Shown: positions 2,074 through 64,000 of the stretch, in pieces
Layout of the letters: the number at the start of each line of letters is the position of its first letter
How positions within the stretch are numbered: position 1 is the stretch's first letter
From: Ottowia thiooxydans DSM 14619
Lineage (GTDB): Bacteria; Pseudomonadota; Gammaproteobacteria; Burkholderiales; Burkholderiaceae_C
Assembly: GCF_000422885.1 (NCBI RefSeq)
Contig: NZ_KE383942.1
Coordinates: 313,353-377,352, forward strand
Direction: 5' to 3'
DNA length: 64,000 nucleotides
Program-made: the position numbers and the translations under genes
The notes under the pieces: generated by a model
Databases searched by the model: none
What the model was told of the DNA's origin: nothing
The model's input: only the letters and a program-made list of their open reading frames with translations

Positions 2074-2111
2074 GCGGCCTCCGAATCTCCAATGCTCAAA
2101 TTTGTTGCAAC

Positions 2112-2552
2112 ATGACTCAAGAACGCTACGAAATCGCCTTGGCCGACCTGGCGCAAGACATTGGCCTTGATGGCTCCGCTTTGGCTCAATACGAGGAGCT
2201 CGTCATTGATGGCGTGGCCATCGCACTGTCTTATGAGGCGGATGAGATGGGCGGCTCCATGCAAGGGGCCTGCTATGTCGGTACTGACCCTTTGTCTGTG
2301 GATGCGTCTTCCAATCTACTGCGTGTGCTCTTGCAAGCGAACACATTGGGCGCTCCCACACTGGGCGCAACACTGGGTTTGCAGCGCTCTGGCCGCCTGG
2401 TGCTGTCTCGGCGGGAGCCACTGGATGCCCCACCTGATCGCTTGGCACGCGTGTGGGGTGAGCTTGCAGATGCGTCGGCGCGCTGGGCCATAGCGCTTGA
2501 GGAGGGCCTGGAGACACGCGCAAAAGAGCTCGTGCATGGCGAGGGGAACTAG
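2112..2552 (+). CDS. CesT-family T3SS chaperone, third of three tandem paralogues
   Basis: This 146-residue protein starts at ATG 2112 (MTQERYEIALADLAQDIGL), where the similarity to the other copies begins; the longer in-frame start at 1998 lies inside the preceding gene. It keeps YEELVIDGVAIALSYEADE and VLLQANTLGAPTLGATLGLQ. In this copy the LW-GTGG loop of the other two is changed to LGAPTLG, the clearest divergence within the triplet. The N-terminus ALADLAQDIGL resembles that of the SycN-like protein (LADFGQDIGV), as expected for related small chaperones. The client is unknown. Confidence 0.6.
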   Translation: MTQERYEIALADLAQDIGLDGSALAQYEELVIDGVAIALSYEADEMGGSMQGACYVGTDPLSVDASSNLLRVLLQANTLGAPTLGATLGLQRSGRLVLSRREPLDAPPDRLARVWGELADASARWAIALEEGLETRAKELVHGEGN

Positions 2553-2772
2553 GGTGTGGTCCGTTTTCCTGGATTGCTTGAAGGCTCGGGGGCGTCTGGA
2601 TCTGTTCCTGTGCGGGGGAGCGCGTGCGTGTCGACGCTAGTGCGAGGCTTCCTATCCACTTAATTATGGCGCTCCATCTTCTATCGCCTACACTTTTTAC
2701 GTTGCGGCCTAAGTTCCCCCTGGCTTGAGCGAAAAACACATGCGACACTAATCCCGAAGAACCGGAGCAGCT

Positions 2773-3195
2773 ATGGCAGAAAATCATGTTGGTTCCCACA
2801 TTGCATTTGACCGTGGCATAGACCAGGTCACCTATGCTCGCCTGGGAGAGTCGCAGAGTCTCCCGCAGCGAAGGGAGGAGGCACCTTCGGAACTGGGAGG
2901 CCGACCACAGCTGGAGAGCCTGCTTGCTCAGCCTACGCTTGATGGCATGTTGGAGGAGGCCATTCGCCCCAGGCTCGAAAATCGCGATCTGCTGGTGCCC
3001 AGCCGCTTTCAGGCGGCCCTCGACAGCGTACACGCGGCGATCTCGGAGAAAGCCGAAAATAACCCGGCTGGTACGGATCAGTTCGGGTCACCCGAAGAAA
3101 GACGTGTTCTCCAACGGGCCGTGAGGCTATTGAGCAATGAGCGTGATCTGCGGGGCTTGGTGCAGATGTATCGCAGCGTGCTCTACCAAGGTTGA
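2773..3195 (+). CDS. sctX: T3SS protein SctX (YscX family)
   Basis: This 140-residue protein starts at ATG 2773 with GGAG 6 bases upstream (2763-2766). In Yersinia, YscX is an early secreted component that binds the chaperone YscY and the export gate YscV and is needed for needle assembly. The features seen are an N-terminal HIAFDRGIDQVTY segment and a basic C-terminus (RRVLQRAVRLLSNERDLRGLVQMYRSVL) that fits the YscX C-terminal helix. The order sctX-sctY-sctV is diagnostic of Ysc-type systems. It is slightly longer than YscX (about 122 residues). The 220-bp gap upstream contains no gene and may hold a promoter that I could not define. Confidence 0.65.
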   Translation: MAENHVGSHIAFDRGIDQVTYARLGESQSLPQRREEAPSELGGRPQLESLLAQPTLDGMLEEAIRPRLENRDLLVPSRFQAALDSVHAAISEKAENNPAGTDQFGSPEERRVLQRAVRLLSNERDLRGLVQMYRSVLYQG

Positions 3196-3284
3196 AAGTG
3201 TCATTGGCAGAGATCGCATCACTGCAGAGTGCTTGCTCTCCTGGAAACCTGCGTGATAAATCCCGTGCTTGGGTCTAGGAACAA

Positions 3285-3686
3285 ATGAAACCAGACGCTG
3301 TGCCACCATTGCCTGATTTTGGGCGAGCCGATGGAATCTCTTCCACGCAAATCGAGCTGATGGATCTGCTCAGCTACATCTATCTGCGCCACGGCCTGCC
3401 CGACAAGGCCGCCGTACTTCTGGCGGCGCGTGACTTGTTGGCACCTGACAATCGAATCACCTTGCTCACTCTGGCGCTCGCGCAGGTGCGTGCGTCCAAG
3501 CCGGAGCGTGCGCTGGAAACGCTGGAGCGGCTGGCCATGCTGGGGGCGGTAGATGCCCCTTTTCATCTCGTGCGGGCACAGGCTTTTCAGGCTTTGGGAC
3601 GTATCGGTGAAGCGGCTGGTGCCATGCGCGCTCACGTGGCTTTGCGCGCCTCCCAGAAAAACGATGTGATGACCACAGTAAACTGA
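3285..3686 (+). CDS. sctY: T3SS chaperone SctY (YscY family, TPR)
   Basis: This 133-residue protein starts at ATG 3285 with AGGA 5 bases upstream. Helical repeats are visible: LLSYIYLRHGLPDKAAVLLAARDLLAPDN, then LALAQVRASKPERALETLERLA and LVRAQAFQALGRIGEAAGAMRAHV, a TPR fold like that of YscY, the chaperone of YscX. Five bases separate its stop from the sctV start, so it is co-translated with the export gate. It is slightly longer than Yersinia YscY (about 114 residues). The function is inferred from family and from its fixed place between sctX and sctV. Confidence 0.65.
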   Translation: MKPDAVPPLPDFGRADGISSTQIELMDLLSYIYLRHGLPDKAAVLLAARDLLAPDNRITLLTLALAQVRASKPERALETLERLAMLGAVDAPFHLVRAQAFQALGRIGEAAGAMRAHVALRASQKNDVMTTVN

Positions 3687-3691
3687 GCGCA

Positions 3692-5818
3692 ATGGCAATC
3701 AGCGCTACCAACTCTTCTACCGGCACCCTCGCGCGATTGCAGCGCATTGTGCAGTTGGCTACCAGCCGAAACGACCTGGTATTGGCGTTCTTCCTGGTGG
3801 CCGTGATCTTCATGATGATCTTGCCACTGCCCACCTGGTTGGTGGATATGCTGATCGGCACCAACATGACGATCTCCGCCATCTTGCTCATGGTGGCCAT
3901 GTATTTGCCTTCGCCTCTGGCATTTTCCTCGTTTCCCTCAGTACTGCTGATCACCACGCTGTTTCGTCTGGGCATCTCGATTGCCACCACGCGCTTGATA
4001 CTGTTGCAGGGCGACGCGGGGCACATCATTACCACCTTTGGCAACTTCGTGGTCGGCGGGAATCTGGTGGTCGGCCTCGTGGTGTTCCTGATTCTGACCA
4101 TCGTGCAGTTCGTGGTGATTACCAAAGGCGCTGAGCGGGTCGCTGAGGTGGCGGCTCGGTTCTCACTTGATGCCATGCCGGGCAAGCAGATGTCCATCGA
4201 TGGTGACATGCGGGCAGGCACCATCGATATGGAAGAGGCCAAGCGTCGTCGAGGTATCGTTGAAAAGGAAAGCCAGCTTTATGGAGCCATGGATGGCGCC
4301 ATGAAATTCGTCAAAGGTGATGCGATTGCTGGCTTGATCATTGTGGCCGTGAACTTGCTTGGCGGCATCATCATCGGCACGATGCAGCGCGGCATGACGG
4401 TGGGCGATGCCACCAGAACCTATTCGATCCTCACCATTGGGGATGGCTTGATTGCACAGATTCCCGCTCTGTTCATCGCCATCTGCGCGGGCATGATTGT
4501 GACCCGCGTGCAGACTGGGGATGAGCCGTCCAACGTCGGAAAAGACATCGGTTCGCAGGTGTTGGCCCAACCTCGGGCCTTGCTGATCGCTGCGGCTGTG
4601 GCGCTCGGGCTGGGTCTGATTCCTGGCATGCCGTTCCCTGTATTTGCCCTACTCGCCGCGGTTATTGGCACGATCGGTTTCGTGCTGATGAGAGGTGTCC
4701 GCCGGGTGGTGAACGAGAAAACAGGAGAAATCACCGAGGTGCCAGCCTTGCAGGCCGCTGGCGAGAAACCTCGCAAGGCCAAGAACGATGGAAGCGACGA
4801 GTTCTCTCCCACCGTGCCGCTATTGATGGATGTCGCTTCGGGCTTGCAAAACAGCTTTGATGCCGAAGTATTGAACGACGAACTGCTCAAGATTCGCCGC
4901 GCACTTTATTTCGATTTGGGGGTGCCTTTTCCGGGCATTCAGCTGCGCTTCAATGAGGCACTTCCCCAGGAGAGCTACAACATTTTGCTTTCGGAGGTTC
5001 CTGTGTCTCAGGGGCGGCTGCGGCATGGGTGGCTATTGGTGCGTGAGAAGACGCAAAACCTTGACGCCTTGCAGATCGACTACGAGTCTGATCGCAATTT
5101 CCTGCCGCACATTCCAACGCTGTGGGCCAAAGCCCAACTAGCAGAAAGCCTCAGAAGCTCGGGAATCTCGTTCATGGATTCCAGTCAGGTGCTGGCCTAT
5201 CACCTGGCGTTCGTTCTCAAGAAATACTCTTCAGACTTCATCGGCATTCAAGAAACGCGCTTCTTGCTGGCTTCTATGGAAGCGCGCTTTCCGGATTTGG
5301 TCAAGGAGTCGACGCGGGTGCTTCCTATCCAGAAGATCGCTGAAATCTTGCAGCGTTTGGTGTCCGAAGATGTCTCGATCCGCAATTTGCGCGCCATTTT
5401 GGAGTCTTTGATCGAGTGGGGTCAGAAGGAAAAGGACTCGGTGCTCCTGACCGAGTATGTGCGCTCCACGCTTAAACGCCAGATCAGCTACAAGCACTCC
5501 AGCGGACAGAACGTGCTGCCCGCTTATCTCCTGGCGCCCAGCATAGAAGATCAAGTTCGTGGTGCTATTCGCCAAACCTCTGCAGGTAGCTATCTTTCGC
5601 TCGATCCCGCTGTGTCCAAACGCCTGGTCGATAGCATCAAGAAAACGGTGGGTGACATATCCACGAGCGTACAACGGCCCGTACTGCTCACCTCCATGGA
5701 CATTCGCCGTTACATGCGCAAGATGATCGAGCAGGATTTGTATGAGCTGCCGGTGCTCAGCTATCAGGAGCTGACGCAGGAGATCAATATCCAGCCACTC
5801 GCGAGGATAGATTTGTGA
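3692..5818 (+). CDS. sctV: T3SS major export gate protein SctV (YscV/LcrD family)
   Basis: This 708-residue inner-membrane protein forms the nonameric ring that receives substrates and couples proton flow to secretion. The first ~330 residues contain about eight hydrophobic segments, with the FHIPEP-family hallmark region LFRLGISIATTRLILLQGDAG and the cytoplasmic loop FVVITKGAERVAEVAARFSLDAMPGKQMSIDGDMRAG. The C-terminal half is the soluble ring domain (DLGVPFPGIQLRFNEALP through VLSYQELTQEINIQPLARI). The length is normal for the family. It lies directly after sctY and 31 bases before sctD. Flagellar FlhA is a distant relative, but the T3SS neighbours rule that reading out. Confidence 0.95.
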   Translation: MAISATNSSTGTLARLQRIVQLATSRNDLVLAFFLVAVIFMMILPLPTWLVDMLIGTNMTISAILLMVAMYLPSPLAFSSFPSVLLITTLFRLGISIATTRLILLQGDAGHIITTFGNFVVGGNLVVGLVVFLILTIVQFVVITKGAERVAEVAARFSLDAMPGKQMSIDGDMRAGTIDMEEAKRRRGIVEKESQLYGAMDGAMKFVKGDAIAGLIIVAVNLLGGIIIGTMQRGMTVGDATRTYSILTIGDGLIAQIPALFIAICAGMIVTRVQTGDEPSNVGKDIGSQVLAQPRALLIAAAVALGLGLIPGMPFPVFALLAAVIGTIGFVLMRGVRRVVNEKTGEITEVPALQAAGEKPRKAKNDGSDEFSPTVPLLMDVASGLQNSFDAEVLNDELLKIRRALYFDLGVPFPGIQLRFNEALPQESYNILLSEVPVSQGRLRHGWLLVREKTQNLDALQIDYESDRNFLPHIPTLWAKAQLAESLRSSGISFMDSSQVLAYHLAFVLKKYSSDFIGIQETRFLLASMEARFPDLVKESTRVLPIQKIAEILQRLVSEDVSIRNLRAILESLIEWGQKEKDSVLLTEYVRSTLKRQISYKHSSGQNVLPAYLLAPSIEDQVRGAIRQTSAGSYLSLDPAVSKRLVDSIKKTVGDISTSVQRPVLLTSMDIRRYMRKMIEQDLYELPVLSYQELTQEINIQPLARIDL

Positions 5819-53570: not shown

Positions 53571-53645
53571 GGGTGATTAGCTCAGCGGTAGAGCACTGCC
53601 TTCACACGGCAGGGGTCGCAGGTTCAAACCCTGCATCACCCACCA
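53571..53645 (+). tRNA. tRNA-Val (CAC), probable attachment site of the downstream element
   Basis: A 75-base cloverleaf is present: acceptor GGGTGAT with ATCACCC, anticodon stem CTGCC/GGCAG, loop TTCACAC giving anticodon CAC, and T-loop GGTTCAAACC, with encoded CCA at 53643-53645. It is intact. An integrase-bearing element starts just downstream, so the 3' part of the tRNA probably holds the core attachment sequence; the second copy should lie right of the window. Confidence 0.93.
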
Positions 53646-53663
53646 AAAATACTCAATAAAACC

Positions 53664-53695
53664 AAGGACTTAGCAGAAATGCCGAGTCCTTTTTT
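53664..53695 (+). terminator. Terminator after tRNA-Val
   Basis: AAGGACT (53664-53670) pairs with AGTCCTT (53685-53691), followed by T's. It is a classical Rho-independent terminator for the tRNA transcript. It lies inside, or at, the left end of the integrated element. Confidence 0.75.
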
Positions 53696-53845
53696 GTTGC
53701 CGGTACGGAAAAAGTACGGAAAACAGGTGCTGGCTTAAAGCGCTTTTTTTGCGTCTCAATGCACAGTTCATTTGGCTCTGCACATTTCGATTGCCCCATC
53801 GTCATGCAAAATGTTCCTCTTCATAACCACACGAGGAGAGGGATA

Positions 53846-54082
53846 GTGTTCAAGATTGGCGAAAAGTATGACATTGAAATGTTGGACGGCCGCGACCATA
53901 ACGGGCATCCAGACCTGACCACCTATCCGGGTCGCGAAGTGTTGTCGAAGGACGGTCCGCTCATAGAAATAGTTGACGCGGGTGGAACCCTCATAATTAA
54001 CACTTACTCACCCGTCTTTGCTCGGGCAAAGCTGAAGAAGCCTTCGAAGATCGCGGAGGCGCTGCAATCCAAAGGCTCCTGA
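53846..54082 (+). CDS. Small unknown protein at the left end of the element
   Basis: This 78-residue protein uses GTG 53846, chosen because GAGGAGAGGG lies just upstream; an in-frame ATG at 53759 has no such site. The composition is plain, with no membrane segment (FKIGEKYDIEMLDGRDHNGHPDLTTYPGREVLSKDG...). It is the only plus-strand gene of the element and lies next to the att site, the usual place of satellite accessory genes. I do not recognise the family. Confidence 0.5.
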   Translation: MFKIGEKYDIEMLDGRDHNGHPDLTTYPGREVLSKDGPLIEIVDAGGTLIINTYSPVFARAKLKKPSKIAEALQSKGS

Positions 54083-54094
54083 GTCGACCTCTCT

Positions 54095-54364
54095 TCAAGC
54101 CACCCATTTCCGATACGGATCAAGCAACCGAGTAAACAGCCTGTTCTCCACGATAGGGCCATCGGACTGACTCTCCCGGCGCGTGTACAGACTGCCCACC
54201 AGCATCAACACAGCGGCATGCACTGGCGCTGCGTCGGGTAGTTCGTCTAGGTCGAGATAGTCCAGCGCTGCGGCTTCGGCGGCGTCAATCATTGCCAAGA
54301 TGGCAGCGTCGTCTTCATCTTGATCAACGCGAATGTGGTTTTTTGCTTCTTCCAGGGTCACCAT
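54095..54364 (-). CDS. Head-tail connector (gp6/DNA-packaging) protein
   Basis: This 89-residue protein has MVTLEEAKNHIRVDQDEDDAAILAMIDAAEAAALDYLD, which is the hallmark N-terminus of the phage head-tail connector/DNA packaging family (gp6 of HK97 type), then VHAAVLMLVGSLYTRRESQSDGPI. It adapts the portal for tail attachment. In satellites such a connector lets helper tails join. It is the last gene of the head module. Confidence 0.75.
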   Translation of the reverse strand: MVTLEEAKNHIRVDQDEDDAAILAMIDAAEAAALDYLDLDELPDAAPVHAAVLMLVGSLYTRRESQSDGPIVENRLFTRLLDPYRKWVA

Positions 54365-54521
54365 GTCTTTTCCTCAGTAAATGCGCCTGCCGCGCTCGGT
54401 GAGAGGTGCCGGGTAACATGTCCCGGCCACCAAGCCGCAGGCTGTCAGGGTTTTCTATGAACGCGGCACTCACTGACAAATCCGCGTCCGGGCCATGTCT
54501 TGCGACCCCTCCCGGCTAGGG

Positions 54522-56036
54522 TTAAACAAACATGAATTGGCCATCGCTATAGCCCTCGCTCATCGCCTGAGAGCTGGCTGCTATCCCGAAGGCCATAGCC
54601 ATCGCCACCAGGCCATCAATGCGACCCGTGGTGCGGCTCTTGTCGAGCTTGCGGTTGCCTGCCGGGTCTTTCGTCACCGTCGCATTGGCCGCACACATCT
54701 GGAGCACCGGATTGCCACCGTGGGCCACTTGCCCATTCAGCAAGGCAGCTTCCAGCGCATCCAGGGCAGGAGACATATCCTTGAAGCCCTGGCCGAATGG
54801 CACTAGAGGCAATTCCATGTCCAGGCGCTCAAGCTCTTTCTTGAGCACATCGATGCGCCAGCGGTCGAAAGCGATAGCCTGCACATTCACGTCAACCAGA
54901 ATCTCGGCCATATCGCGGGCCACATGCTCATAGTCGATGGCACTGCCTGGCGTGGTGCGTAGCAAGCCCTGGCGATGCCACACGTCATAGGGTGCGCGGT
55001 CACGGCGGGCACGGTCTGCCAAGCCCACCTCAGGCGTCCAGAAGAACGGCTGTACATGCCACACACCATCATCGTCCTGGCCGATCAGCACCAGAGCGGT
55101 TAGGTCGGTGCGCATGGATAGATCCAGGCCAGCGAACACGGGACCATCCATACTGCACATTGAGTGTGCAGTTGCAGCACACGCCTTCCACACGTCCGGC
55201 GACACGAACGGGCTTTCCGTCGATACCCGCTGATTCAGCAGCAGGTTACGAACTGAGTTTTCCATGCTGGGCATGCGCTGGGCTTGCACCATCTGTTCTT
55301 GCAAATCGGCTTCGGAGCGGAACAAACCCAACGCGGGGTTGGCTGCTTTCCAGGCTTGCACGTCCAGCAGATCAGCACCTTCTGGTGCGGCGTACAGATG
55401 ACAAACAATCTTTGGGTCGCTGCTCACCTTGGCGTCGTCAATCTGCACACTCAGCCAATCGGCATCTGTGGCAGCTTGCGTGCTGATGACGATCTGGAGA
55501 GGGTCGGCATGCGCGCCCTGGCTGGTCAGCAGCGCGTCAATGAAATCAGACTGCGGTCCCCGTACCTGGCCCCATTCATCGCCGATCACCAGCACCGGGG
55601 ATAGCCCGTGAGCGGTCTTGCCGTCAGCGGCCATCGCTCGAAACTCAACATTCATGGGCAGACCGATCAGGCGCTTGCCTGAAGGCACGATGCGCACCAG
55701 GCTGGAGAGCTTCGCCGATTGCTGCACCATCTTGCAGGCCAACGAGAACACCAGGGATGCCTGATCCCGACTCATGGCACCAGAGACTATTTGCGCGTTC
55801 TGCTTGGCCTCAGGCCCGACAAGGTGCGCCAGCAGCAGGCCAGCAATCAAGCCAGACTTACCATTCTTTCGTGCTATTGAAAGAATAGCGCGGCGCGTTC
55901 CAGCGGGGTTGTCGTAGACCTCACGGATGAACTTCTTTTGGAAGTCAGCCAGCACCAGCGGCTTACCCACATCCGCGCCTTCGGGCGTCACGCAGTAACG
56001 CTGAATGAAGTCAATGATGCGGGCGGCTCTGCTCAT
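54522..56036 (-). CDS. Terminase large subunit
   Basis: This 504-residue protein has Walker A LSIARKNGKSGLIAGLLLAHL near residue 50, Walker B VLVIGDEWGQVRG (near 150), and a nuclease domain starting FAGLDLSMRTDLTALVLIGQ (near 300) with further Asp in ALDALEAALLNGQ and the final RIDGLVAMAMAFG. It packages DNA into the head with ATP. Its start overlaps the small-subunit stop (ATGA), so the two are translated together. Confidence 0.92.
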   Translation of the reverse strand: MSRAARIIDFIQRYCVTPEGADVGKPLVLADFQKKFIREVYDNPAGTRRAILSIARKNGKSGLIAGLLLAHLVGPEAKQNAQIVSGAMSRDQASLVFSLACKMVQQSAKLSSLVRIVPSGKRLIGLPMNVEFRAMAADGKTAHGLSPVLVIGDEWGQVRGPQSDFIDALLTSQGAHADPLQIVISTQAATDADWLSVQIDDAKVSSDPKIVCHLYAAPEGADLLDVQAWKAANPALGLFRSEADLQEQMVQAQRMPSMENSVRNLLLNQRVSTESPFVSPDVWKACAATAHSMCSMDGPVFAGLDLSMRTDLTALVLIGQDDDGVWHVQPFFWTPEVGLADRARRDRAPYDVWHRQGLLRTTPGSAIDYEHVARDMAEILVDVNVQAIAFDRWRIDVLKKELERLDMELPLVPFGQGFKDMSPALDALEAALLNGQVAHGGNPVLQMCAANATVTKDPAGNRKLDKSRTTGRIDGLVAMAMAFGIAASSQAMSEGYSDGQFMFV

Positions 56037-56446
56037 ACTGCGCGGAGCCTCGGAATCAGATCATCATCTGGTTGCTGGCGTGCTCCACGCTCGGCGGTCG
56101 CTGCATTCACCATGTCAGCGGCTCGGCCCACGGTAGCGGTTGTGTGAACACTCACCGAGCGAGACAAGGCCATGGCAAGGCGGGTTAGCTTGGCATGCTC
56201 ATCAGATCCGATTGCTACGGTTTCAATAGCATGCTGCACCCTGGCCAGATTCGCAGCCAGCACCAGATCGGAATCAGTCCAGGTATCACGCGGCCTAGAT
56301 TGCACGATGGCATTCCAGAACGGTTTGCAGGCTTCCGGCAGGGTCACATAGGCCGGCGGATCAATCGGGCCTTGTGCGGCGTTCTGAGCGGCCTGCACTG
56401 CACCCTTGGCAGTGTCTGCACGCTGGCGTTTGGGAGTGAGCTTCAT
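56033..56446 (-). CDS. Terminase small subunit (probable)
   Basis: This 137-residue protein overlaps the large terminase start by four bases and lies directly upstream, which is the classical terS-terL pair. It is helical (PEACKPFWNAIVQSRPRDTWTDSDLVLAANLARVQHAIETVAIGSDEHAKLTRLAMALSRSVSVHTTATVGRAADMVNAATAER). It should recognise the element's pac or cos site and so decide which DNA enters the head. The family call rests on position and general pattern. Confidence 0.7.
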   Translation of the reverse strand: MKLTPKRQRADTAKGAVQAAQNAAQGPIDPPAYVTLPEACKPFWNAIVQSRPRDTWTDSDLVLAANLARVQHAIETVAIGSDEHAKLTRLAMALSRSVSVHTTATVGRAADMVNAATAERGARQQPDDDLIPRLRAV

Positions 56447-56506
56447 GGTTGCCTATTTTTTAAGCAGCAAGCGTTAAAGGAAGAGGGACAGGACGGTCTA
56501 GGCCAA

Positions 56507-56971
56507 TCAGCCACTGGTGATTTCTGGCTCATCGCCTCGCCTCGGATCGGGCCTGAGCAGCAGCGGCGTCTTGGCATTCCACGGGTGGCGCAGGTCGATA
56601 GGCCAGCCATCCAGGCCACACCCCAGGCTCACGCGCTTGCCTTGATCCATCGCCGTCTTGATCGAGTGACAGCTATGGCACAACGGACACAAGTTATCCG
56701 TGCTGTTGTCGCTCGGGTCACCTGAGACGTGATCCACATCAGTAGCCGGTTCCACCTGCCCACGCTGGGCACATGCTCTGCATAGAGGTTCACCAGCCAG
56801 CACAGATGCCCTCAGGCGCTGCCACGCTGCTCCATTGAGGGGTAAGGTGCGGCGCGGGTCTGCATCGCGTCCTGTGCGTTTGGATAGGCGCAAAGGCGGT
56901 GCCATCTTGATGCGTGTGTCTTCGATCATCTTGATGCGCGGTTGCAGCATCTTCAGCTTGGGGCGGTTCAT
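56507..56971 (-). CDS. HNH endonuclease of the packaging module
   Basis: This 154-residue protein has zinc ligands in CRACAQRG and CPLCHSCHS, around the HNH core VDHVSGDPSDNSTDNLCPLCHSCHSIKTAM. HNH proteins beside terminase genes in HK97-type phages activate terminase cutting at cos sites. The gene lies between portal and small terminase, and its ATG overlaps the portal stop by four bases. Confidence 0.8.
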   Translation of the reverse strand: MNRPKLKMLQPRIKMIEDTRIKMAPPLRLSKRTGRDADPRRTLPLNGAAWQRLRASVLAGEPLCRACAQRGQVEPATDVDHVSGDPSDNSTDNLCPLCHSCHSIKTAMDQGKRVSLGCGLDGWPIDLRHPWNAKTPLLLRPDPRRGDEPEITSG

Positions 56972-58191
56972 GCGGCTTCCTTCTGCTTGGATGGATAGGG
57001 TTGCGGCGCAGGGGTGGGGGTGGAATCGGATTCCACCGTCTTGGCATCGTCTATGCCCTCGATCACCGGCAGGTTCTCCAGCTTCCGGGCCTCGCTCTTG
57101 AGCATCCAGCCGCTGGTAATGCCTGAGCTATAGAACGCGGCTCGGTTGGTGGCATCGCCTCTCAGCAATCCTTCAACCTGATGCTCTGCAAAGTAGGTGC
57201 GCCGACCTGCCTCAGTCAGCAGCTTCTGTGCAATGCCCTGCTCCCACATGGTCAGGTGCCTGCGTAGGCTCAGAGTCACGAACTGGCGAGCTAGCTCCAC
57301 GCTGTTGGAGTAGTTCGCACTCTCCATGCTTTGCACAATGACAGGGGGCACACGGAACAAGCGGCACACCTCCACCACTGAGAGCTTGCGGGCCTCGATC
57401 CATTCGGCATCCTCTAGGCTCATGCTCACCGGCTGGAAGTCGGCACCCTCTTCAAGCACAGCAGTGCGGCCGCTGTTGGCACCTCCTGCATGCTGGCTGG
57501 CCCAGGACTCACGGATGGTTGTGCGTTGTTCGGCTTTGAGCTTGCCGGGGAACTTGAGTACACCCAGCAGCTTTGCACCATTGCGGAAAGTCGAAACACC
57601 ATGCTCCTGTTCGGAGATAGCCAACTCGATCACTCCACGGGCGGCTTGTATAGGACTGACGCCCATCACGCCATCGTCACCCAGTCGGTGACGCAGGTGC
57701 AGTACCTCATCTGCCAGCAGGCGATTCAATCGGCCTTCGGTATCGCTGTACTCATAGGCCAGCTTGCCAGTGTTCAACCTGAGCACGTTCATGCGGTCGG
57801 GGTTGATGGGCCATAACTCTCTCACCTGGCCGTCATAGCCACGCACGATGCGGGCAAAGGCATTGCCACGAAGCAAGACATTCGCCTGCATCAGTTCGCG
57901 GAACTCCAGGGCGGTTTGCTCGGGGTTAGCCGCATCATGAAGCACACGGTATAGGGGATGGTCGCCAGCGCGTTCACGGTCATCACCACTTCGCCGATAA
58001 AGGATCAGGGGCAACGTGGCCGTAGTCTCGGCAATGGCCTGTACGCAGGCATAGACAGCACTCACCCCTTGCGCGGTCTGGTCGTTCACCGGGCCATTGC
58101 GCAGGGTCTGGAAGGCTCCCCAGGTGTCATTTGGGTTGGTGGCTCGGCGCTCTAGGCCAATCACATTCAATGCGCGTTCTAGGAGGCTCAT
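56968..58191 (-). CDS. HK97-type phage portal protein
   Basis: This protein has 407 residues. Start ATG 58191 overlaps the protease stop (ATGA); ATG 58197 is also in frame. Portal features are VSAVYACVQAIAETTATLPLILYRR, LLRGNAFARIVRGYDGQVRELWPINPDRM, and VVEVCRLFRVPPVIVQSMESANYSNSVELARQFVTLSLRRHL. It forms the ring through which DNA enters the head and joins to the connector. The C-terminal tail is low complexity (PTPAPQPYPSKQKEAA). Confidence 0.9.
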   Translation of the reverse strand: MSLLERALNVIGLERRATNPNDTWGAFQTLRNGPVNDQTAQGVSAVYACVQAIAETTATLPLILYRRSGDDRERAGDHPLYRVLHDAANPEQTALEFRELMQANVLLRGNAFARIVRGYDGQVRELWPINPDRMNVLRLNTGKLAYEYSDTEGRLNRLLADEVLHLRHRLGDDGVMGVSPIQAARGVIELAISEQEHGVSTFRNGAKLLGVLKFPGKLKAEQRTTIRESWASQHAGGANSGRTAVLEEGADFQPVSMSLEDAEWIEARKLSVVEVCRLFRVPPVIVQSMESANYSNSVELARQFVTLSLRRHLTMWEQGIAQKLLTEAGRRTYFAEHQVEGLLRGDATNRAAFYSSGITSGWMLKSEARKLENLPVIEGIDDAKTVESDSTPTPAPQPYPSKQKEAA

Positions 58192-58727
58192 CGGCATGTC
58201 TCCAGCCACAGGTTGCGCGGCTCGCATGAGAACATGACCAGGTACTGCTTAGGCTTGTTGCGCATCGCCACCGTGGTATCGGTGTAGGCCGGGTCACTGG
58301 TCAAGGTGATTTCATGAAGATTCACCTCCAGCAACTCGCGCACTATCGTGGAGCCTCGTTCCTCCCAGCGGTCGCCACCATCGGCTACTTGAAAGCCGAA
58401 TGAACAACCGGCCACGTCGCCACGATCAACCAGCACAGCCAAGTCCCGGCCATGGGTGGTATCTGGTAGAGCCAACTCAAAAGCCAGTCCATGCGCATCC
58501 TCTTTGAGCTTCAAGCTACCGCCACGGGTCGTACCCAGCAGCGCAGCGCCTTGGTGGTGATAGAGCGCACGAATATTGGAGCCGCTTCCCAGGGACTTGG
58601 CGAAGGCTCCATTGCGGATGACCTCAGAGAAACTCCCCAGGTTGGCTTCGCTGTTGAATATCGCGGCATACCCGTGCAGCGTCTTGCCGTTGCTGCGCAG
58701 GTTGCCAGTAGAGCGGACTTCCAACAT
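58188..58727 (-). CDS. HK97 family prohead protease
   Basis: This 179-residue protein has the U35 pattern: LHGYAAIFNSEANLGSFSEVIRNGAFAKSL, VLVDRGDVAGCSFGFQVADGGDRWEE and VRELLEVNLHEITLTSDPAY. The His of LYHHQG and Ser of CSFGF are the expected catalytic residues. It matures the capsid. It lies between capsid and portal, with the stop overlapping the portal start. Confidence 0.85.
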   Translation of the reverse strand: MLEVRSTGNLRSNGKTLHGYAAIFNSEANLGSFSEVIRNGAFAKSLGSGSNIRALYHHQGAALLGTTRGGSLKLKEDAHGLAFELALPDTTHGRDLAVLVDRGDVAGCSFGFQVADGGDRWEERGSTIVRELLEVNLHEITLTSDPAYTDTTVAMRNKPKQYLVMFSCEPRNLWLETCR

Positions 58728-58738
58728 TCGCTTGCTCC

Positions 58739-59962
58739 TTAGATAGCGATGTCGTCAGCCAGCACGAATGCCTTGGGATGGCGCACTGCGGCATCGCAGG
58801 TATGCAAAATTCGGAGCTGCACATCACCCTTTTCGTAGTACCCAGCGGCATAAGGGTTTGCTAGGATTTCTGTAGCACCCCATTCGCCGATCACCAGTTG
58901 GGTGAAGTCACCTGCAATCAATCGGCCCGTGGCTGGGCTTCCTGCCTTGGCGTCCAGTTGGTTGGTGGAGTACGCTGGAAGGTCTGCCACACGGCCGCCT
59001 TGCATCAGGTACGCGGCACCGGCCACAGCATCCTTGAGCGTGGTTTGCAGCTTGGTCGAAACCTTGGCATGAGTCACGATGGCATTGGGCGTGATGTTCT
59101 CCAGGCCCAGTTTTTCAAGCATGGCGACGATGGCATCCCAATCGAGCGTTGCCAGTGATGCAGTTTGAATGCCTGCCACGCTCAAGATGCCCGTGGGCTG
59201 CTTGGCGGCGGCAGTCCCGTGCAGCAGCGCTTTATCCACTGCCAGCGAAACCACTGCGGAGAAGTCATCGCGCACCAGTTGTTCAATGGCCGGATTGCTT
59301 TGCTGGATCAGTTGACGACTCAGTGCAGTGAGTGCGCCTACGTGCTTTGGCTCCAGCTTGACGCTTCCGTAGGTGGTGTTGCTCTCAGTGAGGGCGTCAC
59401 CTTCGGCAATCCAGTACGCAGTTGATGCGCCGGTCTGTTTGGGCAACACGGTATCGCCGCGCAGCCCGGTAAGGACTCGGGCACCCAGTGATTTCACGAT
59501 CAGGCTGTTGCGCAGCAGGCCAATGAACTGGTCAGCTTTGAAGTCGTCCGGCACGATGGCTGCGGAACTGGTGGTGGTCTGAGTCGCACGCTTCTCGAAG
59601 ATCGACGTGGGCACCAGAATGCCGCCTTTGCTAGGTTCGATGCCCATGCGCTTAGCTTCGGCTTGGAACTCTGCCAAGGCACCCGTGGCGCTGCGGTTCT
59701 CCACCTGGCAGGCGATGGCGTCCAGCACGTTCACACGGCTTTCCATGTTGCGGCGGCTGGTGTCTACAGGCGTACCTGTAGAGCGGCGCTCGGCCTCTTC
59801 AATGAATTGGGCGCGGGCTTCGTCAGCCTCCAGGGCTGAGATTTCAGCCTTGAGTGAGTCGAACTTGGTTTTCGCCTCGGGCGTCAGCGTCTCAGCGTTC
59901 AGCAGGGTTCGGGCTTCGGTAACTTTGGCAGCGCGGGCTTCGCGCAGGTCGTTCAGTTTCAT
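58739..59962 (-). CDS. HK97-type major capsid protein
   Basis: This 407-residue protein has an N-terminal coiled coil delta-domain (NAETLTPEAKTKFDSLKAEISALEADEARAQFIEEAER) that the protease removes. The HK97 fold follows from about residue 110 (GGILVPTSIFEKRATQTTTSSAAIVPDDFKADQFIGLLRNSLIVKSLGARVLTGLRGDTVLPKQTGASTAYWIAEG) to the end (YYEKGDVQLRILHTCDAAVRHPKAFVLADD). It is the shell protein of the head. It is the first gene of the head module. Confidence 0.92.
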   Translation of the reverse strand: MKLNDLREARAAKVTEARTLLNAETLTPEAKTKFDSLKAEISALEADEARAQFIEEAERRSTGTPVDTSRRNMESRVNVLDAIACQVENRSATGALAEFQAEAKRMGIEPSKGGILVPTSIFEKRATQTTTSSAAIVPDDFKADQFIGLLRNSLIVKSLGARVLTGLRGDTVLPKQTGASTAYWIAEGDALTESNTTYGSVKLEPKHVGALTALSRQLIQQSNPAIEQLVRDDFSAVVSLAVDKALLHGTAAAKQPTGILSVAGIQTASLATLDWDAIVAMLEKLGLENITPNAIVTHAKVSTKLQTTLKDAVAGAAYLMQGGRVADLPAYSTNQLDAKAGSPATGRLIAGDFTQLVIGEWGATEILANPYAAGYYEKGDVQLRILHTCDAAVRHPKAFVLADDIAI

Positions 59963-60340
59963 GGGTCAGTTCTTTGCAAAGAATGAAGAAAGACCCAGAT
60001 ATACCGAACTTCAAAAATGATAGCAATAGGCCTGAGAGGGGTGAATGCTCATGGCCGAACATGGCAGATAACTATTTTTTGCCGTTGCGGGCCAACCACT
60101 GTTTGGAGCCTGTTTTCACTGGGCCGCTCTCCGATATGCCAACAGCAAGGCGGGTCGTTGGGGCCGCTCGCTGTCCTGGCCCTGCCATCAGTCCTGTTCT
60201 GCGTCCTAGGACTGGTAGAGCTATAGAGGTGTACAGTTTCTGTAGTTGGTCGGTGGTACAGAAACTGAGGGCTGATCGGCCTGAAACCCGCATGGATACT
60301 GGGTTTTGAGAAATTCGCCACCGTTCTGACGCTACATTTT
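59963..60340. other. 378-bp gap between capsid and replication-like gene
   Basis: There is no gene in this gap. Its right part contains TACAGTTTCTGTA (60232-60244) and a partial copy on the other strand (60257-60269); the same motif recurs three times in the 3' end of the next gene. The promoter of the head module should lie here. Confidence 0.55.
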
Positions 60341-60432
60341 TTAATGAGTCGCAGGAGGGGCTAATACAGAAACTGTAGCGTCAAATGCTCCCATCGATAC
60401 AGTTTCTGTATCGGCACGCTGCATTTTCTGTA
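60232..60432. repeat. Array of the palindrome TACAG-TTT-CTGTA
   Basis: Perfect copies lie at 60232-60244, 60365-60377 (opposite orientation of the TTT centre) and 60398-60410. The last is extended to a 19-bp perfect palindrome at 60395-60413. Partial copies (11 of 13) lie at 60257-60269 and 60420-60432. Three of the five are within the last 90 bases of the replication-like gene. The high local density excludes chance; the motif is a candidate iteron or repressor operator for replication or for the head operon. Confidence 0.75.
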
Positions 60433-60904
60433 GCGTCGTTTTATTTTTAGTCGCCCTGGCCCGTGGCGCTGTGGCAGCTTTAATGACTCGCCGGGCTTCG
60501 GTTAGCGTCTTGGCTGCTAGGTATTCGTGCGTCGGCTTCATGGCATCAATGTGAAGCTTCAGGTTCTCGAACACTTCCAAGTCCGTGAAGCGGTAGAGGT
60601 TGCACACCTTGGAACCGTTCTCCACGCCGATGGTGGCGCGGGTCTTGGCGATAAATCCAGCGGCCTCTAGTTGACGCAAAGCCTTTGCTAGTGTCACCGG
60701 GGCCGTCCATCCCCGGTGCCGTAGCTCCGACAATGCCGCGTTGATGTTTCCATTGTTGAACCCGTTCAACTTCACGCGAAGGTCAAAGAACAGGGCCTGG
60801 GAGGAACGATCTAGTGCAATGTAAGCGGGACTGTTCAGCAGCGAGAGATTGACGCCTACAAACTTGTCGGCGTAGGTCTTAGCTGGGCGTTTATCCCGGC
60901 CCAT
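60341..60904 (-). CDS. Winged-helix replication-like protein of the element
   Basis: This 187-residue protein has an N-terminal winged-helix-like region (KFVGVNLSLLNSPAYIALDRSSQALFFDLRVKLNGFNNGNINAALSELRHRGWTAPVTLAKALRQLEAAGFIAKTRA), like the DNA-binding domains of phage replication initiators and plasmid Rep proteins. The C-terminal ~35 residues overlap the palindrome array, so protein sequence there is shaped by DNA sites. Its start overlaps the Toprim stop (TAATG). A role in origin recognition or in control of the head operon is inferred, not shown. Confidence 0.6.
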   Translation of the reverse strand: MGRDKRPAKTYADKFVGVNLSLLNSPAYIALDRSSQALFFDLRVKLNGFNNGNINAALSELRHRGWTAPVTLAKALRQLEAAGFIAKTRATIGVENGSKVCNLYRFTDLEVFENLKLHIDAMKPTHEYLAAKTLTEARRVIKAATAPRARATKNKTTLQKMQRADTETVSMGAFDATVSVLAPPATH

Positions 60905-61782
60905 TAACGCGCCTCCAGCAGTCGGGCCATTCTGGCCAAGTGAGCACGTTCTGATTGTTCGGCCACCTTAGCGACTTCCAGGGCGTTTTCAGGTAGCAGC
61001 AATTCCACTTCGAGCCGCAACAATGAACGCAGTGATCGAGCTGGCATGGCCTCTGCCTCCACGGTGTATTTGATGTGCTGGGCGCGCTTATCGCTTTCCT
61101 TTCGCGGCTTGGTCGGCAGGTCGTATTCCTCCACCTGCTCCTCGTTGATGGCAATGCGGCGAAAGTTCAGTTCGATATCTGACCGCAAGTGCATGCGCAG
61201 TTCACGCTCCAGCGTCACATCAATCAATACGCCCGCCGGGTCGTAGTCACCGATGTAGAACACCACCAGGGGCCTGGCGTCGTCGCCATGGTTATGCACT
61301 TGCGCAGCCTCATGGACGAAGGACAAGCTACTGAATCCGCCACAGGGGTACAGGTCCACCGCAAGGTCTTTGCAATCACCCAGCAGCACAGATGCAATGC
61401 TGCGCGACTCTGCCCACACTTCACAGCGGTAATCGGAGTCTCGCCATAGATCGGCGCGGTAATGACCCGCCATGCTCCGGATGAAATCGCCCGCACCTGA
61501 ATAGGTGTTGACGAAGTAGCCGCGGCGACTCATGTCCGCGATCCAGTTGTAGGGTATTTGACCGTCGCGGCGAAGCTTCACACAGCGCTCTTGAACATGT
61601 CTGTAGCCTCGGTCGGACTTCTCCACCGGCTCAGGCAGGCGCGGGTCGGTCATCCGGTAAAACACATGGCGCACGGATTGGGGATGATCTTCGTTCAACA
61701 CGGCAATGATCTGCGAATCCAGTTGTTCGACACGATCACGGGTGCGACGTTCACGTTTTATCGTGCCAGCCCGATAAGTCAT
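60904..61782 (-). CDS. Toprim-domain protein (topoisomerase VI A/Spo11-like) of the element
   Basis: This protein has 292 residues with ATG 61782, overlapping the AlpA gene (ATGA). The Toprim motif is RPLVVFYIGDYDPAGVLIDVTLERELR (near residue 170), with acidic GDYDPAG. The N-terminal region (HVFYRMTDPRLPEPVEKSDRGYRHVQERCVKLRRDGQIPYNWIADMSRRG) resembles the winged 5Y-CAP region of topoisomerase VI A. The role in the element may be in replication; primase is an alternative use of Toprim. Charged, no signal peptide. Confidence 0.65.
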   Translation of the reverse strand: MTYRAGTIKRERRTRDRVEQLDSQIIAVLNEDHPQSVRHVFYRMTDPRLPEPVEKSDRGYRHVQERCVKLRRDGQIPYNWIADMSRRGYFVNTYSGAGDFIRSMAGHYRADLWRDSDYRCEVWAESRSIASVLLGDCKDLAVDLYPCGGFSSLSFVHEAAQVHNHGDDARPLVVFYIGDYDPAGVLIDVTLERELRMHLRSDIELNFRRIAINEEQVEEYDLPTKPRKESDKRAQHIKYTVEAEAMPARSLRSLLRLEVELLLPENALEVAKVAEQSERAHLARMARLLEAR

Positions 61783-62024
61783 GCCGCCCCCTTGGCTTTG
61801 AGCCAGTCGGAGACTTGACCGGCTACCCAACGGGTACAGCGCTTGCCATCTTTTTTTGGCGCTGGGAACGTGCCCTCGGCAACTCTGCGGCGGATGCTCG
61901 ATTCAGACAGGCCAGTGACTTCGATCACCGTCTGAATCTTTAGCAGGGCTTCGGCAATATGAAGCGCATAGGCCGACTGGAGAGGTGGGCGCTTATGGCG
62001 GGTTGGAGCGGAAACAGTGTGCAT
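61779..62024 (-). CDS. alpA: AlpA-family regulator
   Basis: This protein has 81 residues with ATG 62024, supported by GAGG 6 bases upstream; the earlier ATG at 62054 is less likely. The MerR-like helix-turn-helix is KIQTVIEVTGLSESSIRRRVAEGTFPAPKKDGKRCTRWVAGQVSDWLKAKG, the AlpA pattern (GLSxxTIYRxxxxGxFPxPxxxG...WxxxEVxxWL). AlpA controls excision and replication genes in phage satellites (PICIs). It is directly next to the unusual palindrome array at 62091-62136, which is its likely target. Confidence 0.8.
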   Translation of the reverse strand: MHTVSAPTRHKRPPLQSAYALHIAEALLKIQTVIEVTGLSESSIRRRVAEGTFPAPKKDGKRCTRWVAGQVSDWLKAKGAA

Positions 62025-62090
62025 TGAAAGCCTCATGAATGAATGAGCCTTCATTGCAACCGATATTTGCTCCTAAATATATAGCACTAT

Positions 62091-62136
62091 GCTAGCAGGG
62101 TACGTACTTTGCTAGCTAGGTACGTACCCTGCTAGC
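62091..62136. repeat. 46-bp palindrome of alternating GCTAGC and GTACGTAC units at 10-bp pitch
   Basis: GCTAGC at 62091-62096, 62111-62116 and 62131-62136 alternates with GTACGTAC at 62100-62107 and 62120-62127, so five self-complementary motifs have centres exactly 10 bases apart (62093.5 to 62133.5). The whole 46 bases form a palindrome with arms of 17 and only two mismatched base pairs inside. The repeat period is 20 bases. It lies between the stop of the 166-residue gene (62132) and the alpA start (62024), beside a TATATT element at 62081-62076. Confidence 0.85.
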
Positions 62137-62632
62137 TGGGTTCAGATTCCCACTCTTTGCACCAGCGCTCGATCACTCGTTGACTTCCCAAGGCATCATA
62201 TTTATCAAGCATTGCCCGCGCGAATGCGGATTTACTCCGGTACTCGTGTCTATTCTTCTGCCACCGAATCCAGCAATCGAAAACGTGCTGCTTTGCTGCT
62301 TGCTTGGGGCCCGCGTAGTGCTGGTTGATAGCCCGGCGCCTTGCTTTACTAGAGTCTCTAAGTTGGTATGTCAGGGATACAAACTCACTGATTGATTCCT
62401 CATCCAAGTTTGTTGCGATAATTTTTTTTAAACGCGCTTTGTGCGCCAAATATTCGACATTCCACGCTTCCGCATCGCCGACAAAAGGGTCAGGACACCC
62501 ATGAACTAACTCATCGAGAACGGCTGCGGCTCTTGCCTCTTGCTTTGCAGCAATTTTCCTGACTCTTTCCAGTTCTCTCATTGCAGCTGCATTGCATATG
62601 CTGTTAGAAACATCAGTTTCATTACTCGTCAT
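62132..62632 (-). CDS. Unknown 166-residue protein between integrase and AlpA
   Basis: This helical protein has many charged residues (MRELERVRKIAAKQEARAAAVLDELVHG...; HYAGPKQAAKQHVFDCWIRWQKNRHEYRSKSAFARAMLDKYDALGSQRVIERWCKEW). The C-terminal region resembles a small DNA-binding helix bundle, but I recognise no family. Its TAG stop at 62132-62134 lies inside the 46-bp palindrome. It is in the same direction as alpA and may be its co-regulated upstream neighbour. Confidence 0.5.
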   Translation of the reverse strand: MTSNETDVSNSICNAAAMRELERVRKIAAKQEARAAAVLDELVHGCPDPFVGDAEAWNVEYLAHKARLKKIIATNLDEESISEFVSLTYQLRDSSKARRRAINQHYAGPKQAAKQHVFDCWIRWQKNRHEYRSKSAFARAMLDKYDALGSQRVIERWCKEWESEPS

Positions 62633-62720
62633 AGCGTCCCCCTCGCCCCTGAAAAAGTTGCCAGCCCAGCCCGTCAGGGAAACGGGTTTTCGGGGATCAG
62701 CCTAGGGCTGGCGAAAATGG

Positions 62721-63098
62721 CTAAGCTGACCAAACTAGACGAAGGTGGCTATGCTTAGGGGGCGCTTTAGTCCTGGCCGCTTTAAACATTGCCTCTATGC
62801 GGTCGAGCGGTTCAAGCAACCTCGCCCTGACATCCCAACGCTTTCCTTTGACTGCCCTAACAGAGATCCAGGAGCAAAACTCACCGTTCCGATATGCCAG
62901 CCGCTTCGGTGCAATGGGGAATTCAATGTCAGGGATGCGGAGCGTATCAAGCACGCCGCTGGCTGCGACGATCTCATAGCCCCAACTATCTCGAGTGTAA
63001 AGCCGCCCCTCCGGCAGATGTGAGCGGCGAACAAGCATGTCACCAGTCTCGATTCGCTCCCATCCATGGTCTTCTGGGTGGATAATTAATGCAGCCAT
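62721..63098 (-). CDS. Unknown 125-residue protein near the integrase gene
   Basis: ATG 63098 is preferred over an in-frame TTG 63104, with AAGGA about 8 bases upstream. The sequence (MAALIIHPEDHGWERIETGDMLVRRSHLPEGRLYTRDSWGYEIVAASGVLDTLRIPD...) is acidic and aromatic-rich with no signal peptide. I do not recognise a family. It lies between the 166-residue gene and the integrase, all minus strand. Confidence 0.45.
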   Translation of the reverse strand: MAALIIHPEDHGWERIETGDMLVRRSHLPEGRLYTRDSWGYEIVAASGVLDTLRIPDIEFPIAPKRLAYRNGEFCSWISVRAVKGKRWDVRARLLEPLDRIEAMFKAARTKAPPKHSHLRLVWSA

Positions 63099-63199
63099 TT
63101 TCAAAGTCCTTTTGATAGTGGTCAGGCGGTCGGGTCGTTCTCAGGCTTCCCGGTCGCCGTCTTTTTGCCCTACATAGTCCGGCGCAGGGCTTGCCGGTA

Positions 63200-64000
63200 T
63201 CAAATTGCCAGCGCAGCCAGTGCATTAGCGGCGTGCGCCTGTCTCAAGTGTCCGTAGTGTTTTTCGATCATTGGCAAAGACGTATCAGCCAGCTTGGCGA
63301 CGGTTAGCAGATCCAGCCCGTGAGCTGAGATCAGATCGGTGATAGTGCTGTGCCTCAGGCTGTAAGCTGTTGCGCCGCTGGGTAGCTCGGCAGCGGTCAC
63401 GGCATCCCTCATAGGGCCTTTCCATGAGTCCTTGTTCCACGCGGCACCATCCGCTCTTGCGAAGATCGGCGCAGCGGGCAGCTTGTTTTTGCACTGTCCC
63501 GCGATGAAGTCCGCCGTTTCCTTGGGTAGCGGGATCGTGCGCGGCTTGCCGTTTTTGTCGTTGCCGATACGTAGGTTTTTCAGACGTGGCTCGAAGTCTG
63601 CCACTGTGCGGGCTGCGAGCGCACCCGGACGGAGGGGGAGGGCGCTCATAGCTCGGATGAACGTTCCAATGTCTGATGCAGCGTGCCTAACCAGCTTCTG
63701 CCGCTGGGCATGATCCAAGTAAACCTCCCGCTTCCCGCTTGCCGCTTCCACTGGGCGAAGTTTGGTATCCCAAGCCGTGCTACTGGTGATGTAGCCGTCG
63801 GCCAGCGCCAGATTCAGCGCGGCCTTTAAGTTGCTCATATCGCGGTTTAGAGATGCTGCACTGCGTTTGCGCGTGGCTTCCTTCGCTTTGTCTTGCGGCA
63901 TGGCCAAAGTGCCCGCCAGCTTTGAGCGCCAATCATCTAGTACCCGGGGGGTTATTTTTGTGAGGGGCAGGCGCTCAAGCCTTTTATCGTCGAACACCCA
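63200..64000 (-). CDS. int: Tyrosine recombinase (integrase), N-terminus beyond the window
   Basis: At least 267 C-terminal residues are inside; the reading frame is still open at the right edge. The catalytic residues seen are Arg in SALPLRPGALAARTVADF, Lys in GNDKNGKPRTIPL, the Y-S-L-R-H box YSLRHSTITDLI (Tyr instead of the usual His), and the Tyr nucleophile in LADTSLPMIEKHYGHL. It should integrate the element at tRNA-Val. The C-terminal ALAALAI tail is short. Being at the far end from tRNA-Val, it suggests that the second att site lies just outside. Confidence 0.88.
   Translation of the reverse strand, partial: WVFDDKRLERLPLTKITPRVLDDWRSKLAGTLAMPQDKAKEATRKRSAASLNRDMSNLKAALNLALADGYITSSTAWDTKLRPVEAASGKREVYLDHAQRQKLVRHAASDIGTFIRAMSALPLRPGALAARTVADFEPRLKNLRIGNDKNGKPRTIPLPKETADFIAGQCKNKLPAAPIFARADGAAWNKDSWKGPMRDAVTAAELPSGATAYSLRHSTITDLISAHGLDLLTVAKLADTSLPMIEKHYGHLRQAHAANALAALAI

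Follow-up and report, generated by a model that had tools for sequence, protein, structure and literature searches.

A probable capsid-forming phage satellite integrated at a tRNA-Val gene of Ottowia thiooxydans

Introduction

Is a block of phage head and packaging genes that lies beside a tRNA gene, with no recognised tail gene, a working satellite or what is left of a phage? The question is raised by a 64,000-nucleotide stretch of the Ottowia thiooxydans DSM 14619 genome (G000:C2:313353-377352; genome of 7.05 Mb in 78 contigs), hereafter the window, whose right end holds most of an integrated element of 10,894 bp. Capsid-forming phage-inducible chromosomal islands (cf-PICIs), reportedly the subject of Alqurainy et al. 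2023, are the known kind that it most resembles. A sequence-only reading of the window had proposed a satellite of this type. We consider it very likely that the element is a capsid-forming phage satellite in its integrated state, with the way of life of a cf-PICI, and that proposal gains support from a second attachment (att) site, from the lack of any recognised tail or lysis gene, and from the lack of a local twin prophage.

Ends and gene content of the element

With the sequence past the window end included, the element is bounded by perfect 50-bp direct repeats of the tRNA-Val 3' end (2 matches in the real sequence, 0 in 200 shuffles). One copy lies inside the tRNA gene, so that the element starts at 53596 and not at 53646 as first proposed; the partner, which the sequence-only reading had suggested seeking to the right of 64,000, lies 490 to 539 bp past the window end, with no recognised tail or lysis gene before it. 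The tRNA-Val gene adjoins dnaQ in all four same-genus genomes inspected. Two same-genus genomes (G411 and G409) have a single att copy, and their locus looks like an empty site. Two further genomes (G421 and G408) have two copies, 16.2 and 17.5 kb apart, flanking other elements (L206, 686-16968; L207, 797-18352); these encode a related integrase (49%) and AlpA (42 to 43%) and a frame of about 1,628 aa, and no head gene of the window element was detected in them.

The element combines several cf-PICI traits: site-specific integration by its own integrase, as indicated by the att repeats and a whole integrase gene; a PICI-type regulator, AlpA; and its own capsid, protease, portal, HNH endonuclease, small terminase (TerS) and large terminase (TerL) (Table 1). 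All named genes from the integrase to the adaptor gene Ad1 are on the minus strand, and a 107-aa frame near the tRNA is on the plus strand. The integrase is whole once the sequence is extended past the window end, and no frame is broken, as the sequence-only reading had held. The open frames and their family matches also agree with its list of integrase, AlpA, Toprim, replication-like and head genes, and the start/stop coupling that it described is visible in the coordinates as overlaps of 4 nt (portal/HNH and TerS/TerL) and 1 nt (Toprim/rep).

We scanned 18 frames of the element, including two small frames in the gap between the capsid and rep genes, against Pfam and PHROGs. None matched a tail, lysis, or CI-type repressor family, and orfB, orfC, and the small frames gave no useful match. 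We also searched the element by tblastn with 36 tail proteins, drawn from six phages or elements, and found no match; because just 8 of 13 control contigs of the tailed type gave at least one match, this screen could overlook divergent tail genes. Within that sensitivity, both searches agree with the earlier claim that tail, lysis, and CI-type genes are absent, and the tail and lysis genes that mark a tailed HK97-like prophage were not found between the att sites. The same screen of the element and its relatives (51 rows, defined below) gave one match, in L196. In the host genome, the sole PF04860 portal and the sole PF05065 capsid are those of this element, which answers the question of a near-identical full prophage nearby, and there was no match to PF05521 (head closure), PF05100 (tail L), or PF13550 (tail J).

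A family of related loci under purifying selection

Queries of IMG/VR returned 67 loci with TerL, 28 with the capsid, and 27 with the Toprim protein. Loci were assigned to the family if they had a TerL of 66% identity or more, a portal, and three or more cassette genes, which gave 49 loci including the window; L047 is from the window's strain (100%), L148 and L051 are one contig, and other pairs are near-identical. The genes present follow the order capsid-protease-portal-HNH-TerS-TerL in 48 of the 49, L154 being a circular contig opened elsewhere. Three metagenome contigs of 10.6 to 10.9 kb (L064, L070, and L154) have terminal repeats of 55 to 127 bases and were therefore assembled as circles. 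IMG/VR relatives with a TerL of 57 to 66% that show both genes have TerL before the portal, the tailed-phage order; L076 (TerL 66%, tailed-type order) was left out by the three-gene rule. The 2.8-kb contig L096 (1-2769), which encodes TerS, a partial TerL, and Ad1 and has a terminal repeat of 141 bases, is either a mini-circle or an assembly artefact.

Among 399 genomes of the window's order, 3 including its own have a TerL at least 70% identical. One such relative, the G098 element (L196), has an integrase and probable ends at a 20-bp direct repeat 11.5 kb apart, with one copy 65 nt past a tRNA-Ser; these ends are weaker than the att sites of the window element. Relatives of the Toprim protein occur at 36 loci (L009 to L044) in named genomes from varied bacteria. 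The whole cassette, in the same order, was found in Ramlibacter sp. H39-3-26 (L011), and part of it in metagenome-assembled genomes (MAGs) of Ferrovibrio (L009, a contig that is cut off) and Nitrosospira (L015, TerL not found); in the remaining 33 loci, it was not found as such. The Toprim loci are a wider class of integrative elements. Twenty-six of them encode a member of one protein cluster, of which the five members scanned are tyrosine integrases, and some have other head genes, such as the capsids in L013 and L033.

Comparison of each gene with its own nearest relative (ten genes, leaving out the integrase and orfB) gave ratios of nonsynonymous to synonymous substitution rates (dN/dS) of 0.17 (capsid), 0.14 (protease), 0.17 (portal), 0.20 (HNH), 0.09 (TerS), 0.09 (TerL), 0.12 (Ad1), 0.11 (Toprim), 0.16 (AlpA), and 0.30 (rep), with orfC saturated; the values are rough, since dS was high (0.8 to 2.0). 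The genes of the element are under purifying selection. The nearest relative changes from gene to gene, a sign of gene exchange within the family, and all six of the head and packaging genes that we compared are of a length typical of the family. The element is neither a one-off nor a wreck.

An HK97-type cos signature

An alignment of the HNH-TerS junction with the joined HK97 and HK022 ends shows a shared pattern (AAATC, 21 to 22 nt, ACCG, 18 nt, AACGCT). The exact pattern AAATC-N21-ACCG-N18-AACGCT occurs once in the window (56470-56523) and in 0 of 100 shuffles, and is the predicted cleavage site. Of the family rows with TerS, 46 were tested (L009 lacks TerS; L047 and L148 were dropped as repeats), and 44, all except L077 and L164, have the signature with at most 5/18 mismatches within 150 nt before TerS; among random pieces of the same contigs, 44 of 1,960 reached this score, some perhaps holding the site. 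The strict pattern is present in 30 of the 49 family loci. Among tailed relatives, it is exact in two Escherichia coli prophages, whereas Pusillimonas and L086 each differ from it at one position and L098 differs at two. The record of vB_KppS-Ant (KppS-Ant), a Klebsiella element considered below, is cut near TerS and is uninformative on cos.

Packaging genes and head genes have different relatives

The closest phage matches listed for TerL are HK022, HK97, and their kin (61 to 62%), and the closest plasmid match is the Pusillimonas T7-7 phage-plasmid (about 67 to 68%), which has the full tailed-phage gene order. DNA relatives of TerS-TerL occur in 9 of 5,426 E. coli genomes, and the two regions inspected are tailed prophages. 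A TerL tree of 96 rows, built by a quick method, has a 47-row branch (Shimodaira-Hasegawa-like approximate likelihood ratio test [SH-aLRT], 98) that comprises L094, L095, and 45 of the 46 family rows, with L077 just outside; the tree does not resolve the order in which this branch and the HK97 and Pusillimonas groups split. In the portal tree (89 rows), one branch (96) holds 44 family rows together with nine cassette relatives; KppS-Ant joins it next (95, long branch), and HK97 and Pusillimonas T7-7 lie far away. In the capsid tree, 39 family rows share a branch (99) with 12 further rows, including L119, whose gene order is different; this branch lies away from HK97, Pusillimonas, and KppS-Ant (long branches), and the closest listed phage match to the capsid is 39% identical over 75% of the protein.

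The nine additional members of the portal branch (L015, L146, L149, L163, L165 to L168, and L180) share the capsid-protease-portal run. Two of them, L167 (10001-14891) and L180, combine the family capsid, protease, and portal with a TerL just 35 to 38% identical to that of the element, and the other seven have no TerL in the available sequence; terminases therefore seem to have been swapped. Given the disagreement of the TerL tree with the portal and capsid trees, the element looks like a mosaic in which packaging genes resembling those of HK97-like tailed phages are joined to a capsid and portal of a separate lineage.

Head closure and replication genes

Of the head-tail connectors, the element has Ad1 and lacks the head-closure protein Hc1. 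Most relatives with room after Ad1 carry a gene of about 105 aa in this slot, and the four scanned match Hc1 (phrog_25, 1e-22 to 2e-33). We counted Hc1 over 51 rows, namely the 49 family loci, L196, and L197, and found it in 33; in L197, it precedes Ad1. Eleven of the 18 rows without Hc1 end too early to judge. This leaves seven, namely the window, L047 (same strain), L073, L196, L063, L075, and L077, of which the last three also lack a recognised Ad1; in L196 and L073, Hc1 is absent after an Ad1, with spare room or before the putative end. A hidden Markov model (HMM) of the relatives' Hc1, run against six-frame pieces of at least 25 aa, gave no match in the window element even with E values as high as 10 allowed. 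The 107-aa frame in the Hc1 slot has no relative in IMG/VR except the contig of the same strain, nor in the 398 other genomes of the order. With no Hc1 in any frame of the element and no PF05521 elsewhere in the genome, either a helper's Hc1 is used or this copy is impaired; L196 and L073 mildly favour the former. The sequence-only reading had called the HK97 head module complete, which holds for the head genes that it named and fails for the connector set.

The RepA-like and Toprim proteins probably serve replication. A profile built from the family of the 187-aa protein hits 4pta, the RepA initiator N-terminal domain, at E = 0.0055 and three related RepA chains at 0.91 to 0.97, with unrelated regulators (E = 0.19 to 0.24) ranking between them. 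The Toprim family profile matches Topo VI-A (1d3y, E = 0.024), with a common YDLPT stretch, and the window protein weakly matches Wadjet JetD (0.0052). D197 is invariant in this family, and D195 and Y58 are near-invariant; these are putative catalytic residues. Topo VI-A-like "Mini-A" proteins are described as occurring mainly on mobile elements in the accessible text of PMC8185306 and PMC11302465. In place of the RepA-like and Toprim genes, siblings have a primase (L053 and L062) or a helicase (L057 and L058). In the family member L161 (4070-5257), rep and capsid are separated by a transposase gene.

Table 1. Features of the element and its integration site (window coordinates)
Feature	Position	Strand	Evidence or remark
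tRNA-Val (cac), integration site	53571..53645	+	ARAGORN
att copy in tRNA end	53596..53645	+	perfect 50-bp direct repeat; partner past window end
107-aa frame, no assigned function	53759..54082	+	occupies slot of Hc1 in relatives; matches no family
Head-tail adaptor Ad1 (gp6-like), 89 aa	54095..54364	-	phrog_40 5.4e-23; PF05135 1.1e-12
Large terminase TerL, HK97 type, 504 aa	54522..56036	-	phrog_9 8.3e-125; 61-62% identity to HK97/HK022 TerL
Small terminase TerS, 137 aa	56033..56446	-	phrog_5601 1e-32
HK97-like cos signature	56470..56523	-	between HNH and TerS, overlapping HNH 3' end
HNH endonuclease, 154 aa	56507..56971	-	phrog_2323 9.8e-28
Portal, 419 aa	56968..58227	-	PF04860 1.1e-105
Prohead protease, 179 aa	58188..58727	-	PF04586 2.5e-42
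HK97-fold major capsid protein, 407 aa	58739..59962	-	PF05065 6e-39
Replication-initiator-like protein (RepA N-terminal-like), 187 aa	60341..60904	-	family profile vs RepA structure 4pta
Toprim protein, 308 aa, probably Topo VI-A/Spo11-like ("Mini-A"-like)	60904..61830	-	phrog_6247 topoisomerase 7.1e-39
AlpA regulator/excisionase, 91 aa	61779..62054	-	PF05930 2.6e-8, 34 bits (cut-off 21)
orfC, 166 aa, no assigned function	62132..62632	-	also in some relatives
orfB, 127 aa, no assigned function	62721..63104	-	matches no family
Tyrosine integrase, 391 aa	63200..64000, plus 375 bp past window (equivalent 64375)	-	PF00589 28.7 bits (cut-off 27.1)

Discussion

If the element works like a cf-PICI, a helper phage would trigger AlpA, which together with the integrase would excise the element at the 50-bp att repeats, and the RepA-like protein would replicate it with the Toprim protein. 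Its own capsid, protease, and portal would form a small HK97-type head, and its HNH, TerS, and TerL would cut concatemers at the HK97-type cos upstream of TerS and load a single 10.9-kb unit into the head. Ad1 would then cap the portal, and the helper would provide the tail and lysis and, for this copy, probably the head-closure protein too. Phages HK106 and HK446, reported to mobilise the cf-PICI EcCIEDL933 (PMC11389934, in the text accessible), are among the closest TerL matches to the element, and our guess is that the helpers are HK97-like siphophages.

The element might instead be a decayed prophage, the remains of a complete HK97-like phage after the loss of its tail, lysis, and lysogeny genes, as its HK97-type TerS, TerL, HNH, and cos could suggest. 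We rejected this explanation, which we regard as very improbable, because its gene order is unlike that of the tailed phages inspected, because dozens of diverged loci, which form TerL, portal, and capsid branches of their own, share its tail-less arrangement, and because selection has acted on genes with no broken frame between perfect att repeats; the family largely refutes it. An integrative plasmid-like element that makes heads for some other use, for instance to interfere with the heads of a helper, and needs no tail would fit the replacement of the primase by RepA-like and Toprim proteins and the failure to find a helper prophage by the families tested. This, too, is improbable, as selection maintains the adaptor, cos, and terminase and Hc1 is kept in 33 of 51 rows, which is sensible only if a tail is joined. 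A stranded satellite, one that formerly worked, lost Hc1, and could now at best be excised and packed without yielding infectious particles, is unlikely as well, with distinctly more in its favour: Hc1 is missing where those 33 rows have it, including L048, which likewise ends at tRNA-Val, its slot is taken by an unconserved frame, and PF05521 has no match elsewhere in the genome. Against it stand L196 and L073, also without Hc1, and the six genes of family-typical length under purifying selection, in which a recent loss would not show.

Several results also weigh against the satellite that we favour. Besides the missing Hc1 and the limited sensitivity of the tail screen, the Pfam and PHROGs scan found no primase-type replication gene in the element. 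Its host has no HK97-like helper prophage by the portal, capsid, head-closure, tail L, and tail J families, the only ones used. In the G098 element, a tail assembly gene (L196, 10458-11036, minus strand; HK97 I-like, 3.5e-42; phrog_32, 5.6e-73) stands among the head genes, between capsid and protease. The family and KppS-Ant do not group together in the capsid tree, and KppS-Ant is a long branch both there and in the portal tree. Finally, the cos signature is missing (4 to 7 mismatches) from 10 of 12 tailed-type IMG/VR contigs, several of them short before TerS.

We tentatively suggest, as a possible extension, that these loci form a recurrent satellite lineage, unreported in the literature searched, that combines the cos and terminase of HK97-like siphophages with a private capsid lineage, in which some members have shed Hc1 and, in this branch, a Spo11-like Toprim protein and a RepA-like initiator replace the primase. 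If so, the satellite's terminase may act on helper DNA and the helper's on satellite DNA. Head-building, tail-borrowing satellites would be extended to hosts at least Ramlibacter-like, and such elements could evidently combine a phage packaging module with a separate capsid lineage. The boundary, the predicted cos site, and the candidate helper class (HK97-like siphophages) are provided for direct tests, the optional Hc1 raises the question of the minimum neck that a satellite must carry, and related elements recur in environmental sequence data.

Comparison with known systems

Among tailed relatives, HK97/HK022 and Pusillimonas T7-7 share the HNH-cos-TerS-TerL module with the element, including the same cos boxes and the 18-nt spacing; TerL identity is 62% to HK97 and about 67 to 68% to Pusillimonas, and TerS identity is 38% and 53%, respectively. 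They differ in having tail genes and the order TerL-portal-protease-capsid-connectors, and their capsid (22 to 23%) and portal (31%) are far less similar. The Klebsiella vB_KppS-Ant (LR881103), termed an induced prophage in PMC8006926 as far as its text was accessible, is probably a satellite, with the circular order int-regulator-primase-capsid-protease-portal-connectors-TerS-TerL and a portal and protease 34% and 43% identical to those of the element. Unlike the element, it has a primase, a TerL of 28% identity, and a tape-measure protein (phrog_2854, 2e-176). This tape-measure gene lies at 2036-4333 of the 16.5-kb sequence (L190), and KppS-Ant may be a head-building satellite that sets tail length.

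The Streptomyces phage satellites MulchRoom and MiniFlayer, compared by description only, have their own head and packaging genes and differ in their virulent helpers and direct terminal repeats; for MulchRoom, a tail from the helper has been proposed, and the accessible text of the same source reports no significant homology of the two to cf-PICIs (PMC10690885). Descriptions of cf-PICIs themselves, available in part, are given in PMC10690885, PMC11389934, PMC10803314, and PMC13230959, with an average size of 14 kb according to PMC10803314. The literature searched, from which subscription papers are mostly absent, contained no report of a capsid-forming satellite for hosts at least Ramlibacter-like. 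Compared by these published descriptions and not by member sequences, the element is like cf-PICIs in its integrase, PICI-type regulator, own capsid, protease, portal, HNH, TerS, and TerL, a connector, the absence of a tail, and a similar size, and unlike them in having RepA-like and Toprim proteins and no primase, an HNH gene directly after the portal, the adaptor after TerL, no Hc1, and an HK97-type cos and terminases. Thus, cf-PICIs are the known kind, from which this family differs in its hosts, its replication genes, the place of HNH and adaptor, and its optional head closure.

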